DNA of 64,000 nt from Acidobacteriota bacterium (lineage in GTDB: Bacteria; Acidobacteriota; Vicinamibacteria; Vicinamibacterales; UBA2999): NCBI GenBank assembly GCA_963169195.1, contig CAUJDN010000035.1, positions 62,001 to 126,000 on the forward strand. The letters are read 5' to 3'. The position numbers were made by a program, and so were the translations under genes. The notes beneath the pieces are model-generated. The model was not told the DNA's origin and did not search any database. It saw nothing but the letters and a program-made list of their open reading frames with translations. Shown piece by piece: positions 54,183 to 59,435 of this stretch (positions are counted from its first letter, which is position 1; every line of letters begins with the position of its first letter).

Positions 54183-56252
54183 TTACCGCAGGTTGTCGAT
54201 GCTCACCGGATCGATGCGATCGGCCGGCGTAAAGCCGAACACCCTCCCGTAGAAGTAGAGCTCGGCCTCGAGGCTGCGGACGATGTTCTCGGCCTTGCGG
54301 AAGCCGTGCTGCTCGCCCTCGTAGGCGAGGTAGGCGACGGGCAGCCCCTTCCTCCTGACGGCGTCGGCCATCATCTGCGACTGGTTGGGTGGCACCACCT
54401 TGTCCTCCAGGCCCTGGAACAGGATGAGCGCGCTCGACAGCCGGTCGGTGAAGTTGATGGGCGACCGCTCGACATACAGATCCTTCGCCGCCGGGTAGGG
54501 GCCAATCAGCGAGTCGAGGTAGCGTGACTCGAACTTGTGGGTGTCACGGGCCAGGACCTCGATGTCGCTGATGCCGTAGTAGCTGGCGCCCGCCCTGAAG
54601 GTGGCGTGGAACGTCAGGGCGGCCAGGGTCGTGTAGCCGCCCGCGCTGCCGCCGCGGATGGCCAGGCGCTTGCCATCGGCCTTGCCCGCGTCCACCATGG
54701 CCATGGCGCCGGCCACCGCATCCTGCACGTCCACGATGCCCCACTGCCCCTTCAGCCGGTCGCGATAGGCTCGGCCGTAGCCGGTGCTGCCGCTGTAGTT
54801 CACGTCCAGCACCGCAAAGCCGCGGCTCGTCCAGAACTGGACCTCGGGATCGAGCACCGCTTCGGTGGCGCCGGTGGGCCCGCCGTGGGTGAGCACGAGC
54901 AGCGGAGGCGCGGCGCCCTCGGGCGCCTGGTAGTCCGGGTTGCGCGGCGCGTAGTAGAAGGCGTGGACTTCGCGGGAGCTGGCAGGTGCGGGCGGGTGCG
55001 GCGACGGGAACGTGACGGGCTCGGCGGTCGAGATCCACGCGGCGTCGATGGGCTCGCTCGTGGACCGGCGCAGCACCTCCGGCTCCATCGCGGCGAGGGT
55101 CATGCGCGCCACCACGGGCGCCGCGGTCGGCGATCCGCCGACGAAGTAGAGCGCGCGCTCGTCCGCACGGAGGGATTCCATGACATCGAGCGACGTCTGG
55201 ACCGGCTCCCAGCGAAGCGAGTCGGTCTCGATGAACGCCAGGTGCCATCGGCCGTTCTGCGTGTACGTGGCGGCGATGCGCCGCGGCCCCGCGAACGCGT
55301 AGGTCACCATCGAGAAGGTCCATTGCGGCTTGCCGAAGTCGGCGCTCATCGGGTGCAGCGGCTCGATGGCGTCGGCCGGGAGCGCCTCCGAGCCGGCACG
55401 GGGTGCCCCGGCGTCCCGCGGACGAGCACGATACAGGTTCCACCACCCCGTGCGGTCCGACACGAAGTGCAGGACGCCGTCCGGCGACCACTCGGGCTGG
55501 AAGATCGACTCGTCCGGCCCGCCCGCCACCTTCGCCCGCGCTCCGAGCCTGCCGTCCGGCCCGATGGGCGCCGTCCACAGCTCCGTACCGTCCCACGGCA
55601 TGTTGGGGTGGTTCCACTGCAGCCACGCCAGCGTGGCGCCGTCGGGTGAGACCACCGGGTCCGAGTAGAAGTCGGCGCCCGAGACGAGCACCGTGCCCGG
55701 GGCTTCCGCCCCCGCGACGGCGATGGCAACGACCGCCGCCGTGGGCTCGGCGTCGCCTTTCCGGTGATCCTCCCGCACGGCCACGAGCCGTCCGCGCGTC
55801 GCGTCGAGGCGCGCGTCGGCGTAGAAGAACCCCTCCGGCGTCAGCGGCACGGGCGCGCCGCCGCCTCTCTGCACGTAGAGCCGCTGGTCCCCGAAGTTGG
55901 AGAAGTACACGTCCCCGCGGTGCACCGTCATCGCCGCCCCGCCGTACTCGTGCACGCGCGACCGCGCGTTGAACCCGGTCGGCGTCACGTCGCTGATGCG
56001 GCCGTCCGGCGTGCGCCGGACGATGACGTAACGGCCGCCCTCGGAGGCCCGGCCCTCGGTCCAGTAGACGTCGCCGCCGTCGAGCGCAATCTCGCCGAGC
56101 CTGAGCGCGCCCGCCGTGACCCGCGCCGCCGTCAGCGGCGAGGCCCAGGCCCCATAAGGCGCCACGGTCTTGGTTTCTCGCGGACTCTGCTGCATACACC
56201 CCGCCGCCAGGATTGCCACGAGCAGGGGGGCCCGTGATGTCTCTCGTATCAT
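54183..56252 (-). CDS. S9-family serine peptidase lipoprotein (acylaminoacyl-peptidase/DPP-like)
   Basis: A 689-residue peptidase. ATG 56252 gives a lipoprotein signal (LLVAILAAGC). The N-terminal half is a beta-propeller (IALDGGDVYWTEGRASEGGR, DPVVSPDGATLAWLQWNHPN, FQPEWSPDGVLHFVSDRTGW). The catalytic alpha/beta-hydrolase has Ser in AIRGGSAGGYTTLAAL, Asp in FQGLEDKVVPPNQ and His in EGEQHGFRKAEN. It should release dipeptides or acylated residues from peptides at the periplasmic face. Upstream lie 330 bp containing a structured minus-strand RNA and a palindrome, which may control it. A CsgG-like gene follows 3 nt later. Confidence 0.93.
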   Translation of the reverse strand: MIRETSRAPLLVAILAAGCMQQSPRETKTVAPYGAWASPLTAARVTAGALRLGEIALDGGDVYWTEGRASEGGRYVIVRRTPDGRISDVTPTGFNARSRVHEYGGAAMTVHRGDVYFSNFGDQRLYVQRGGGAPVPLTPEGFFYADARLDATRGRLVAVREDHRKGDAEPTAAVVAIAVAGAEAPGTVLVSGADFYSDPVVSPDGATLAWLQWNHPNMPWDGTELWTAPIGPDGRLGARAKVAGGPDESIFQPEWSPDGVLHFVSDRTGWWNLYRARPRDAGAPRAGSEALPADAIEPLHPMSADFGKPQWTFSMVTYAFAGPRRIAATYTQNGRWHLAFIETDSLRWEPVQTSLDVMESLRADERALYFVGGSPTAAPVVARMTLAAMEPEVLRRSTSEPIDAAWISTAEPVTFPSPHPPAPASSREVHAFYYAPRNPDYQAPEGAAPPLLVLTHGGPTGATEAVLDPEVQFWTSRGFAVLDVNYSGSTGYGRAYRDRLKGQWGIVDVQDAVAGAMAMVDAGKADGKRLAIRGGSAGGYTTLAALTFHATFRAGASYYGISDIEVLARDTHKFESRYLDSLIGPYPAAKDLYVERSPINFTDRLSSALILFQGLEDKVVPPNQSQMMADAVRRKGLPVAYLAYEGEQHGFRKAENIVRSLEAELYFYGRVFGFTPADRIDPVSIDNLR

Positions 56253-56351: not shown

Positions 56352-56448
56352 AAAAAAAGCAGCCGCCGGGGGCACAGGAGGTGTAGGAAGCCCACGGCGG
56401 CTGAAGGCTGTTACGGGAGATGTCGCTGGGGCGATACTGCACCTCCCG
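56352..56448 (-). ncRNA. candidate structured leader RNA or sRNA with anti-Shine-Dalgarno loop and terminator
   Basis: On the minus strand, hairpin 1 (56448-56414) pairs CGGGAG with CTCCCG and has an inner TCGC-CCCA-GCGA. Hairpin 2 (56403-56360) has 9 pairs (CAGCCGCCG/CGGCGGCTG), one mismatch and 4 more pairs (GGGC/GCCC), and a 16-nt loop containing CACCTCCT, followed by one C and seven Ts (56358-56352): an intrinsic terminator. GGAGGTG in hairpin 1 is fully complementary to CACCTCC in the loop, so an alternative fold exists. The S9 peptidase gene starts 100 nt downstream. Either a stand-alone sRNA or a leader attenuator. No known family is recognised. Confidence 0.5.
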
Positions 56449-56455
56449 AATGGCC

Positions 56456-56481
56456 CGCCGTATGACGGCCGTCATACGGCG
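56456..56481. promoter_or_regulatory. perfect 26-bp palindrome between divergent genes (candidate operator)
   Basis: The 26 bp read the same on both strands, with a TATGAC-GGCC-GTCATA core flanked by CGCCG/CGGCG. It sits 8 bp upstream of the structured minus-strand RNA and 102 bp upstream of the plus-strand M14 peptidase start. The TATGAC half could serve as a -10 for either direction. A dimeric regulator site is the simplest reading. The remaining DNA of the 330-bp gap (56253-56582) holds a 7-bp hairpin near 56285 and nothing else recognised. Confidence 0.55.
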
Positions 56482-56582: not shown

Positions 56583-59435
56583 ATGCCCGCCAGACTTCGC
56601 TCCTTCGCCCTCCTTGCCCTCACCCTGACCCTGGCCGCCTCCGGCGCGCCGAGCGCGCAGACGACCACGGCCCCCCGGCCGGCGGCCGCCACCCCGGCGC
56701 CCCTGAAGGTGACCACGCCCGAGCAGTTCTTCGGCCACCGGATTGGCGAGGACTACGTGCTCCCGAACTACACGAAGTTCACGGAGTACGTCCGCAAGCT
56801 CGACGCGGAGTCGAACCGCATGGTGGTGCAGAGCATCGGCAAGACAGCCGAGGGCCGCGACCAGCTGATGGCCATCATCACCGCGCCCGAGAACGTCAAG
56901 CGGCTGGACCGCTACAAGGAGATCGTGCGCCGGCTGTCGCACGCCGAGGGGCTCACCGACGATCAGGCGCGCGCACTGGCCCGGGAGGGCAAGGCGGTGG
57001 TGTGGATCGACGGCGGCCTGCACGCCACCGAGGTCCTGGGCGCGCAGCAGCTCACCGAGACGATCTACCAGTTCGTCAGCAGGACGGACGAGGAGACGCT
57101 GCGCATCCTGCGCGACGTGATCATCCTGGCCGCGCACGCCAACCCCGACGGCATGGAGCTGGTCTCCGACTGGTACATGCGCAAGGAGGACCCGAAGTCG
57201 CGCAGCACCGGCGCCATCCCGCGCCTGTACCAGAAGTACGTCGGGCACGACAACAACCGCGACTTCTACATGATGAACCAGCCCGAGTCGGTGAACATCA
57301 ACCACCAGCTCTATCGCGAGTGGTTCCCGCAGATCGTCTACAACCACCACCAGACGGGCCCCACCGGCACGGTGATGTTCTCGCCGCCCTTCCGCGACCC
57401 GTTCAACTACGTGTACGACCCGCTCGTCGTCAACACGCTGGACCAGGTGGGCGCGGCCATGCACGCGCGATTCGACCAGGAAGGCAAGCCGGGCGTGACG
57501 ACGCGCTCGGGCGCGAACTACTCGACGTGGTGGAACGGCGGCCTCCGCACGATGCCGTACTTCCACAATCAGATCGGCCTGCTCACCGAGACGATTGGCA
57601 ACCCGACCCCGGTGCAGATCGAGTTCGTGCCGGACCGGCTGCTGCCGCGGGGCGACCTGCCGGCGCCCATCGCGCCGCAGACCTGGCACTTCCGCCAGTC
57701 CATCGACTACTCCGTCACCGCCAACTACGCCGTGCTCGACTTCGCCCAGCGCTACCGGGAAACGCTGCTCTACAACGCCTACGTGATGGGCCGGAACTCC
57801 ATCGCCCGGGGCAGCACCGACACGTGGACGATGTACCCGCGGCGGATCGCGGAGGTGAAGGCCGAGATCGCCAGGACGACGAAGACCGAATCCACCGATC
57901 CGCGCACGGTGGCCGGCGGCCGCGCCCAGCCCGTGCCGGCCAAGTACTACGACCTGCTTCGCAAGCCCGAATGGCGCGACGCGCGCGCGTACATCCTGCC
58001 GGCCAACGAGGGCGACTTCCTCACGGCCACGAAGTTCGTGAACATCATGATCAAGGCGGGGCTGTCGGTGCACCGCGCGACGGCGCCCCTCACGGCGGGG
58101 GGCAGGACCTATCCCGCCGGCTCGTACGTCTTCAAGGCCGCGCAGGCCTATCGCCCGCACCTGCTCGACATGTTCGAGCCGCAGGACCACCCGCACGACC
58201 TGCAGTATCCCGGCGGGCCGCCGATTCCGCCCTACGACAACTCGGGCTGGACGCTCGCGTACCAGATGGGGATCAGGTTCGACCGCGTCCTCGAGAGCGT
58301 GGACGGGCCGCTCGAGAAAATCGCCGACGTGGTGAAGCCGGCGGCCGGCCAGGTGACCGGCGCGCAGGGCGCGGTGGGCTTCACCGTGCCGCATCGCCTG
58401 AACGACGCGTTCACGGCGGTCAATCGCCTGCTGAAGGCCGGCGAGGAGGTCTTCTTCGTCGGCGATCGCTCCTACCAGAGCGCCGACGGTACGGGCGTGA
58501 TGTTCATCACGGCGCGGCCGAGCACGGCGGCGGTGCTGCAGGAGGCGGCCGCGGATCTCGGGGTGAGCTTCACGGGTGTCTCCAGCCGCCCGCCGGGCCC
58601 GATGTACAGGCTGACGAAGCCGCGCATCGCACTGTGGGACCAGTACGGCGGGTCCATGCCATCGGGGCACGTGCGGTGGCTCCTCGAGCAGTTCGCGTTC
58701 GACTTCGACGTCATCTACCCGCAGGCGCTGGATGCCGGCGGGCTGAAGGCGAAGTACGACGTGATCCTGTTCCCCGATGGCGGCATTCCCGAAACCGACA
58801 CCGCGGGCGGCGGGTTCGGCGGCGCCCAGCCGCGCGCCGACGACATCCCGGCGGAGTATCGCGACCGCCTCGGCCGCGTCACCATCGCGCGCACGGTGCC
58901 GGCACTCAAGCAGTTCGCCGAAGAGGGCGGCGTCATCGTCGCCTTCGGCGGCTCGGCGGTGCTCGGGCATCACCTCGGGCTCGCGCTCGGCGACCACCTC
59001 GTGGAGGCGGCGGCCGACGGCCAGGCGCAGCCGCTGCCGCGGACGAAGTACTACATCCCCGGCGCCATCCTGCGCGTGGCCGTCGACAACACCAATCCGC
59101 TCGCCTTCGGTCTGGAGAAAGAGATCGACGTGTTCTTCGACAACAGCCCGGTGATGCGCCTGGCGCCTGACGCCGCGCTCCGCGGCGTGCGGCCCGTCTC
59201 CTGGTTCGACTCGAAGGCGCCGCTCCGCTCGGGATGGGCATGGGGCCAGCACTACCTCGAGGGCGGCACGGCCGCGGTCGAGGCCGCGCTGGGCAAGGGC
59301 AAGGTCTTCCTGCTGGGCCCGGAGATCACCTTCCGCGCCCAGCCGCACGGCACGTTCAAGTTCCTGTTCAACGGAATCTTCTACGGGACGGCGCAGGCCA
59401 CGGGCGCCGCGGCCCGGGAAACGATGGCCCGGTAA
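56583..59435 (+). CDS. secreted M14-family zinc carboxypeptidase-like protein
   Basis: About 950 residues from ATG 56583 (GAGG 6 nt upstream; ATG 56577 also possible), with a signal peptide (LLALTLTLAASGAPSAQ). The M14 domain (about 60-380) has the zinc His and Glu in WIDGGLHATEVLGAQQ, substrate-binding NPDGME and HDNNRDFYMMNQ, and the later zinc His in VYNHHQTGPTG. The C-terminal ~550 residues, including GSYVFKAAQAYRPHLLDMFE and ALWDQYGGSMPSGHVRWLLE, form a glutamine-amidotransferase-like and beta-sandwich region common to this large subgroup. Probably a periplasmic peptidase for protein scavenging. Confidence 0.92.
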   Translation: MPARLRSFALLALTLTLAASGAPSAQTTTAPRPAAATPAPLKVTTPEQFFGHRIGEDYVLPNYTKFTEYVRKLDAESNRMVVQSIGKTAEGRDQLMAIITAPENVKRLDRYKEIVRRLSHAEGLTDDQARALAREGKAVVWIDGGLHATEVLGAQQLTETIYQFVSRTDEETLRILRDVIILAAHANPDGMELVSDWYMRKEDPKSRSTGAIPRLYQKYVGHDNNRDFYMMNQPESVNINHQLYREWFPQIVYNHHQTGPTGTVMFSPPFRDPFNYVYDPLVVNTLDQVGAAMHARFDQEGKPGVTTRSGANYSTWWNGGLRTMPYFHNQIGLLTETIGNPTPVQIEFVPDRLLPRGDLPAPIAPQTWHFRQSIDYSVTANYAVLDFAQRYRETLLYNAYVMGRNSIARGSTDTWTMYPRRIAEVKAEIARTTKTESTDPRTVAGGRAQPVPAKYYDLLRKPEWRDARAYILPANEGDFLTATKFVNIMIKAGLSVHRATAPLTAGGRTYPAGSYVFKAAQAYRPHLLDMFEPQDHPHDLQYPGGPPIPPYDNSGWTLAYQMGIRFDRVLESVDGPLEKIADVVKPAAGQVTGAQGAVGFTVPHRLNDAFTAVNRLLKAGEEVFFVGDRSYQSADGTGVMFITARPSTAAVLQEAAADLGVSFTGVSSRPPGPMYRLTKPRIALWDQYGGSMPSGHVRWLLEQFAFDFDVIYPQALDAGGLKAKYDVILFPDGGIPETDTAGGGFGGAQPRADDIPAEYRDRLGRVTIARTVPALKQFAEEGGVIVAFGGSAVLGHHLGLALGDHLVEAAADGQAQPLPRTKYYIPGAILRVAVDNTNPLAFGLEKEIDVFFDNSPVMRLAPDAALRGVRPVSWFDSKAPLRSGWAWGQHYLEGGTAAVEAALGKGKVFLLGPEITFRAQPHGTFKFLFNGIFYGTAQATGAAARETMAR

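Follow-up and report, generated by a model that had tools for sequence, protein, structure and literature searches.

A predicted small-RNA gene behind a denitrification-type CRP/FNR operator in one lineage of Acidobacteriota

In the window, the whole 64,000-nucleotide stretch of an Acidobacteriota contig that was analysed, two peptidase genes diverge from an intergenic region that holds a perfect palindrome and, on the minus strand, a predicted promoter followed by an intrinsic terminator. The window belongs to a 5.0-Mb assembly of 135 contigs (G000, referred to below as the own genome), and a sister species (G004) was available for comparison. The elements at the locus are as follows.

54183–56252, minus strand: S9 prolyl-oligopeptidase-family gene, predicted lipoprotein (PF00326, E 7e-47), with its ATG at 56252
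56352–56427, minus strand: predicted small RNA a, about 76 nt, its 5' end taken from the operator spacing and its 3' end from the T-run
56352–56358, minus strand: T-run (7 T) of the terminator
56359–56352, minus strand: CTTTTTTT, 3' of the terminator hairpin
56360–56403, minus strand: intrinsic terminator hairpin CAGCCGCCG-T-GGGC-(16-nt loop)-GCCC-C-CGGCGGCTG, from sequence and fold
56376–56383, minus strand: CACCTCCT, anti-Shine-Dalgarno-like, in the terminator loop; its core CCTCCTG is common to paralogue b
56434–56439, minus strand: predicted -10 hexamer CAGTAT, whose final T falls at -7 for an operator centre (56468.5) at -41.5
56440–56446, minus strand: GGAGGTG, in the promoter spacer at -13 to -19, not conserved in the sister species
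56456–56481: predicted CRP/FNR-family operator, a perfect 26-bp palindrome with halves CGCCGTATGACGG and CCGTCATACGGCG, assigned from site counts and regulator proximity
56462–56475: operator core ATGACGGCCGTCAT, within the palindrome
56583–59435, plus strand: M14 zinc carboxypeptidase gene, divergent (PF00246, E 1e-26)

The palindrome, GGAGGTG, CACCTCCT, the terminator hairpin, the T-run and an S9 gene 100 nt downstream of the latter had all been picked out in a first-pass annotation, and all are present, with the divergent neighbours confirmed as peptidases of the S9 and M14 families. What that annotation missed is the identity of the palindrome, which, judging from its spacing and genomic context, serves a denitrification regulator as a CRP/FNR-type operator of class II.

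CRP/FNR-family sites have the layout xTGAx-N4-xTCAx, and the ATGAC-N4-GTCAT of the palindrome fits it. A search of 59 relatives returned many matches to the palindrome alone. Its ATGACNNNNGTCAT core occurs at 15 sites in the own genome, against none for the reversed pattern used as a control, and the exact 16-mer TATGACGGCCGTCATA occurs at 17 sites in 13 of the 162 genomes of the order, again with none for the reversed pattern. The own-genome sites lie mostly at denitrification, NO-repair, iron and respiratory genes and at the regulator gene in the nos cluster. They include a cytochrome c gene upstream of narG (narG 1492 bits, cut-off 1084), a gene cluster leading to a clade II nosZ (891 bits, cut-off 625), and genes for a NarX-like sensor kinase, FeoB and COX15, with RIC-like hemerythrins also in the regulon; a few of the 15, within coding sequence or near unrelated genes, may be chance occurrences. 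The set as a whole is thus predicted to mark a denitrification, NO and anaerobic regulon, and the 26-bp palindrome, which lies outside the RNA and shares the xTGAC-N4-GTCAx form found at denitrification and NO genes and in the vicinity of a regulator, is the predicted operator of a CRP/FNR-family protein. A plasmid collection gave matches, 26 nt long, in Ensifer only. Six operator sites are found on one 119-kb contig of the own genome (G000:C69; L107-L112), a denitrification and respiration island with narG, a narH-like gene, a NarK-like transporter, a NarX-like sensor kinase, clade II nosZ, NosL- and NosY-like genes, the CRP/FNR regulator and a RIC-like hemerythrin. An operator-adjacent ORF of 318 aa on the minus strand of L087 (G000:C69:33934-34890) gave no Pfam match and is perhaps, by eye, UbiV/U32-like.

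The regulator gene (G000:C69:72157-72846) is near nosZ and adjoins a RIC-like NO-repair gene, in the order operator, RIC-like hemerythrin gene, CRP/FNR gene, beside the NosL- and NosY-like genes (both by-eye calls, NosL being without an NCBIfam match). In G008, three genes lie between two operator copies: one for a CRP/FNR protein, one for ScdA/RIC-type NO repair and one for a radical-SAM protein (the last called by eye). A further 18 genomes of the family carry close homologues of the regulator, 53-93% identical; operator matches no more than about 2 kb from a homologue, on the same contig, were seen in G005, G008, G028, G032 and G035. The protein scores 38.5 bits against the NCBIfam Fnr model, which has a cut-off of 228, and its sequence lacks the N-terminal cysteine cluster; it is not FNR proper, the 4Fe-4S protein, and judged by its context it is NnrR/Dnr-like.

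The distance between operator and -10 hexamer is fixed. When the operator centre is placed at -41.5 and the 16 exact sites are read in both directions, a TANNNT hexamer ends at -7 in seven cases, at -6 in three, and at -8 or -5 in none; among the 15 own sites, a NANNNT hexamer ending at -7 is found nine times, and the other offsets average 0.58. CAGTAT (56439-56434, minus strand) stands at exactly this class-II position, and CAG-AT variants are found at two other own sites. On the plus side of the operator, toward the M14 gene, there is no -10 hexamer at class-II spacing. Operator centre and CAGTAT together put the predicted transcript start at about 56427, which leaves GGAGGTG inside the promoter and outside the predicted transcript. 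A scan with the sigma-70 consensus matched no promoter, although such a scan is uninformative in DNA as GC-rich as this. Two other loci have paired sites or promoters: in G051 (L009, C199) two exact operators, at 1510 and 1606, are separated by 96 bp, and at about class-II distance from each there is a hexamer that contains TA; in the own genome a single operator (L093:1501-1514; G000:C115:61730-61743) has a -10 hexamer at -12 to -7 both ways, TAGGGT and TAGCCT, and apparently activates two divergent genes, one for a small lipoprotein-like protein and one for a BNR/sortilin-like repeat protein (calls made by eye).

Compared with shuffled sequences, the whole region folds with a z of -6.95 including the palindrome and -6.24 excluding it, and the predicted transcript alone with a z of -3.65, a value that none of 200 shuffles equalled. 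The two hairpins described in the first-pass annotation differ in standing: the terminator hairpin is strong, but hairpin 1 is weak (z -1.65, with 12 of 200 shuffles as good), is not predicted in the sister species (z -0.60), and has its GGAGGTG arm in the promoter. In 0.96 Mb of the own genome, a hairpin of 7 bp or more stands before a run of at least 6 T in four cases only. Two of these are the hairpin of a and that of a second locus, b, both with CCTCCT in the loop and both downstream of an operator, which makes it very unlikely that terminator and palindrome came together by chance. The few other canonical terminator-like hairpins in the 0.96 Mb are at L142:12375 (plus strand), L171:15989 (minus strand) and L142:8717 (minus strand), the loop of the last, CTACACCTG, resembling that of RNA a.

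Locus b (G000:C69:12940-13001, equivalent to L049:1501-1562, minus strand; sister-species copy L034:1406-1467, minus strand) lies in both genomes between COX15, the gene for heme A synthase, and a QueD-like gene, the latter about 70 nt downstream on the same strand. It comprises an operator, a -10 hexamer (TACCGT/TACGGT) exactly at -12 to -7, a predicted transcript of about 62 nt, a hairpin and a T-run, and it resembles a in the arms of the stem, in the loop core (CCTCCTG), in the T-run and in a brief run of pyrimidines further upstream. An outer stem pair that is A-U in one b copy is G-C in the other, a compensatory change, and a further pair, an inner one, has both of its bases different in a and b. 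For the covariation check that had been proposed in the first-pass annotation there are thus two pairs with changes on both sides, but the four sequences (a and b in two species) are too few for a claim of covariation, which is minimal because the RNA sequence occurs in two species of one genus only.

This narrow distribution emerges from several searches. Over the 162 genomes of the order, the four-sequence covariance model scores only its own training sequences (E <= 6e-13), and none of the next matches, at E 0.02 and above, is near an operator. When 84,980 genomes were scanned for the combination of operator, CCTCCT and T-run, the result was the two loci of MAG SJ725 (G004) and one match in a Desulfobulbaceae genome, which is within apparent coding sequence and looks like chance. 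Other matches to operator and T-run within the order (G071, G075, G035 and G030) have the look of coding sequence or of unrelated DNA. Rfam gave nothing credible for either locus, at the gathering cut-off or at E up to 10. The two genus members G001 and G003 have the regulator, and in neither was a copy of the RNA detected.

Within the two species, conservation follows the predicted transcript closely. Positions 56427-56352 are identical to the sister species at 75 of 76 positions, apart from two 1-nt indels (short insertions in the sister species), against 75% identity at the fourfold sites of the S9 gene and 80% at those of the M14 gene (Fisher p 1.8e-7 and 5.8e-6), and 78-81% in the flanking intergenic DNA. 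The conserved block starts at about the predicted +1 and takes in all of the loop as well as the 5' part that is unpaired, and on this comparison the predicted transcript is under constraint. Conservation of the loop, on which the first-pass annotation had asked for evidence, is therefore seen in the sister species but cannot be singled out from that of the transcript as a whole.

How, then, is the element best understood? The first-pass annotation had proposed, as one of two alternatives, a leader that switches between termination and read-through into the S9 gene, with GGAGGTG pairing to the loop to give two exclusive folds. In such a scheme the regulator would activate the S9 gene (for b, the QueD-like gene) and the terminator would set signal-dependent read-through. 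The position is indeed leader-like, with a and b 70-100 nt upstream of a co-directional gene, and it is for this reason that we retain the possibility at all, as an unlikely one. The two exclusive folds can be set aside, since GGAGGTG is upstream of the predicted start and reads GGAGCGGTG in the sister species, and no alternative antiterminator was seen within the 76-nt RNA. Moreover, in G001, the one genome compared, the M14 and S9 genes are again a divergent pair, and operator and T-run are both missing from between them, which indicates that the S9 gene needs no such leader and, with the pattern in G001 and G003, that the element behaves like a gene in its own right, confined to a narrow lineage. 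The spacer to the S9 gene is just 81% conserved, and the S9 and QueD-like genes have no common function. The S9 gene is the downstream neighbour of RNA a and probably not its cis target.

Somewhat less likely still is a real, terminated transcript with no function in trans, the promoter and terminator being a by-product or serving to insulate the peptidase gene from the operator, and the CCTCCT loop being incidental. The narrow distribution would be compatible with this, as would a crude comparison of duplex energies over 900 start regions (from rough gene calls over about a fifth of the genome), in which the real loop did no better than shuffled ones and gave no target signal, but such a transcript would hardly account for the conservation of 75 of 76 positions, unpaired 5' part and entire loop included, or for a second, separate locus whose loop core is identical. 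A small-peptide gene is very improbable: b contains an open frame (..AKLNPSAADMFASWWTGGFFF) that is partly conserved between the two species, but a has no start codon equipped with a ribosome binding site, and the two indels between the a copies destroy any common frame while leaving the stem intact, one of them falling at the hairpin bulge. Finally, the recurrence of the perfect 26-bp palindrome in other genomes might suggest a REP-like repeat or the end of a mobile element in an accidental arrangement, a reading we rejected and to which we give next to no weight, as the copies are few per genome, lie at promoters at a fixed distance from the -10 hexamer, as the spacing statistics show, and adjoin a CRP/FNR gene.

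We consider, from the sequence evidence, that the locus is probably a stand-alone small-RNA gene of the denitrification regulon, acting in trans and specific to its lineage. This corresponds to the better-supported half of the earlier proposal, an sRNA with an anti-Shine-Dalgarno loop, which gains from the separate promoter, the terminator, the strong conservation of just the stretch predicted to be transcribed, and the paralogue, whose loop has an identical core. At low oxygen and/or in the presence of NO, the CRP/FNR-family activator would bind the palindrome and switch on the class-II promoter, centred at -41.5 with CAGTAT as -10, and RNA polymerase would start near 56427 and stop at the T-run at 56352 to give an RNA of about 76 nt. 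RNA a and its sibling b would then act in trans, their C-rich loops (CACCTCCT in a, GCCTCCT in b) and single-stranded 5' parts pairing with the Shine-Dalgarno regions of chosen mRNAs, and would lower the translation of these targets during denitrification, in analogy to the role of FnrS in enterics. The anti-Shine-Dalgarno mechanism is plausible for the loop of a; it is weaker for b, as half of its CCTCCT is buried within an inner stem.

Among the closest precedents is fnrS, an FNR-activated sRNA gene with a class-II site centred at -41.5 (PMC3032703). FnrS of Escherichia coli and enterics, the gonococcal FnrS-like sRNA and the RNA predicted here are alike in being short RNAs ended by an intrinsic terminator and driven by a CRP/FNR-family activator from a class-II site. 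Neither sequence nor structure is homologous, however: Rfam gives no match at the gathering cut-off, FnrS is not among the weaker ones, and the regulator is NnrR/Dnr-like, the loop anti-Shine-Dalgarno-like, the RNAs two and the phylum another. RNA a is therefore analogous to FnrS, not homologous to it. An anti-Shine-Dalgarno motif (CCUCCUCCC) in hairpin loops is also known from the rhizobial ar14 family, including NfeR1 (PMC10746234), but ar14 RNAs have three hairpins with the motif in each, against one main hairpin in RNA a, which reaches 11.3 bits with the ar14 model (RF02344) where gathering is at 58.8. NmsRA and NmsRB of Neisseria are sibling sRNAs with anti-Shine-Dalgarno sequences in single-stranded and loop regions (PMC5362039), as a and b are siblings with sequences of this type; the NmsRs, however, have three stem-loops, whereas a and b are unlinked loci with one main hairpin each and a denitrification operator. 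Denitrification-linked sRNAs include PaiI of Pseudomonas (PMC5703892), which needs NarXL, and sRNA-29 of Paracoccus (PMC6686037), which is highest aerobically; RNA a was compared with these by sequence through Rfam only. The RNA thus appears to be new as a family and convergent with known activator-driven, terminator-ended regulatory RNAs. That the siblings form a hitherto undescribed pair, confined to one lineage of Acidobacteriota and independent of both enteric FnrS and rhizobial ar14, which couples the denitrification/NO regulator to translation by imitating the anti-Shine-Dalgarno end of 16S rRNA, is a more specific proposal that we advance only tentatively and with more doubt than conviction.

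Acidobacteriota are among the commonest bacteria in soil. Annotated sRNAs of the phylum number four in one tally (PMC9029176), and some of its members carry nosZ for the reduction of N2O (PMC13122619). The operator, the spacing rule and the regulon list can be used on their own. If the proposal is true, the logic of FnrS, in which an activator represses genes by way of a short RNA, would have arisen independently in another phylum, and the two RNAs would give a way into the study of post-transcriptional control in organisms with clade II nosZ.
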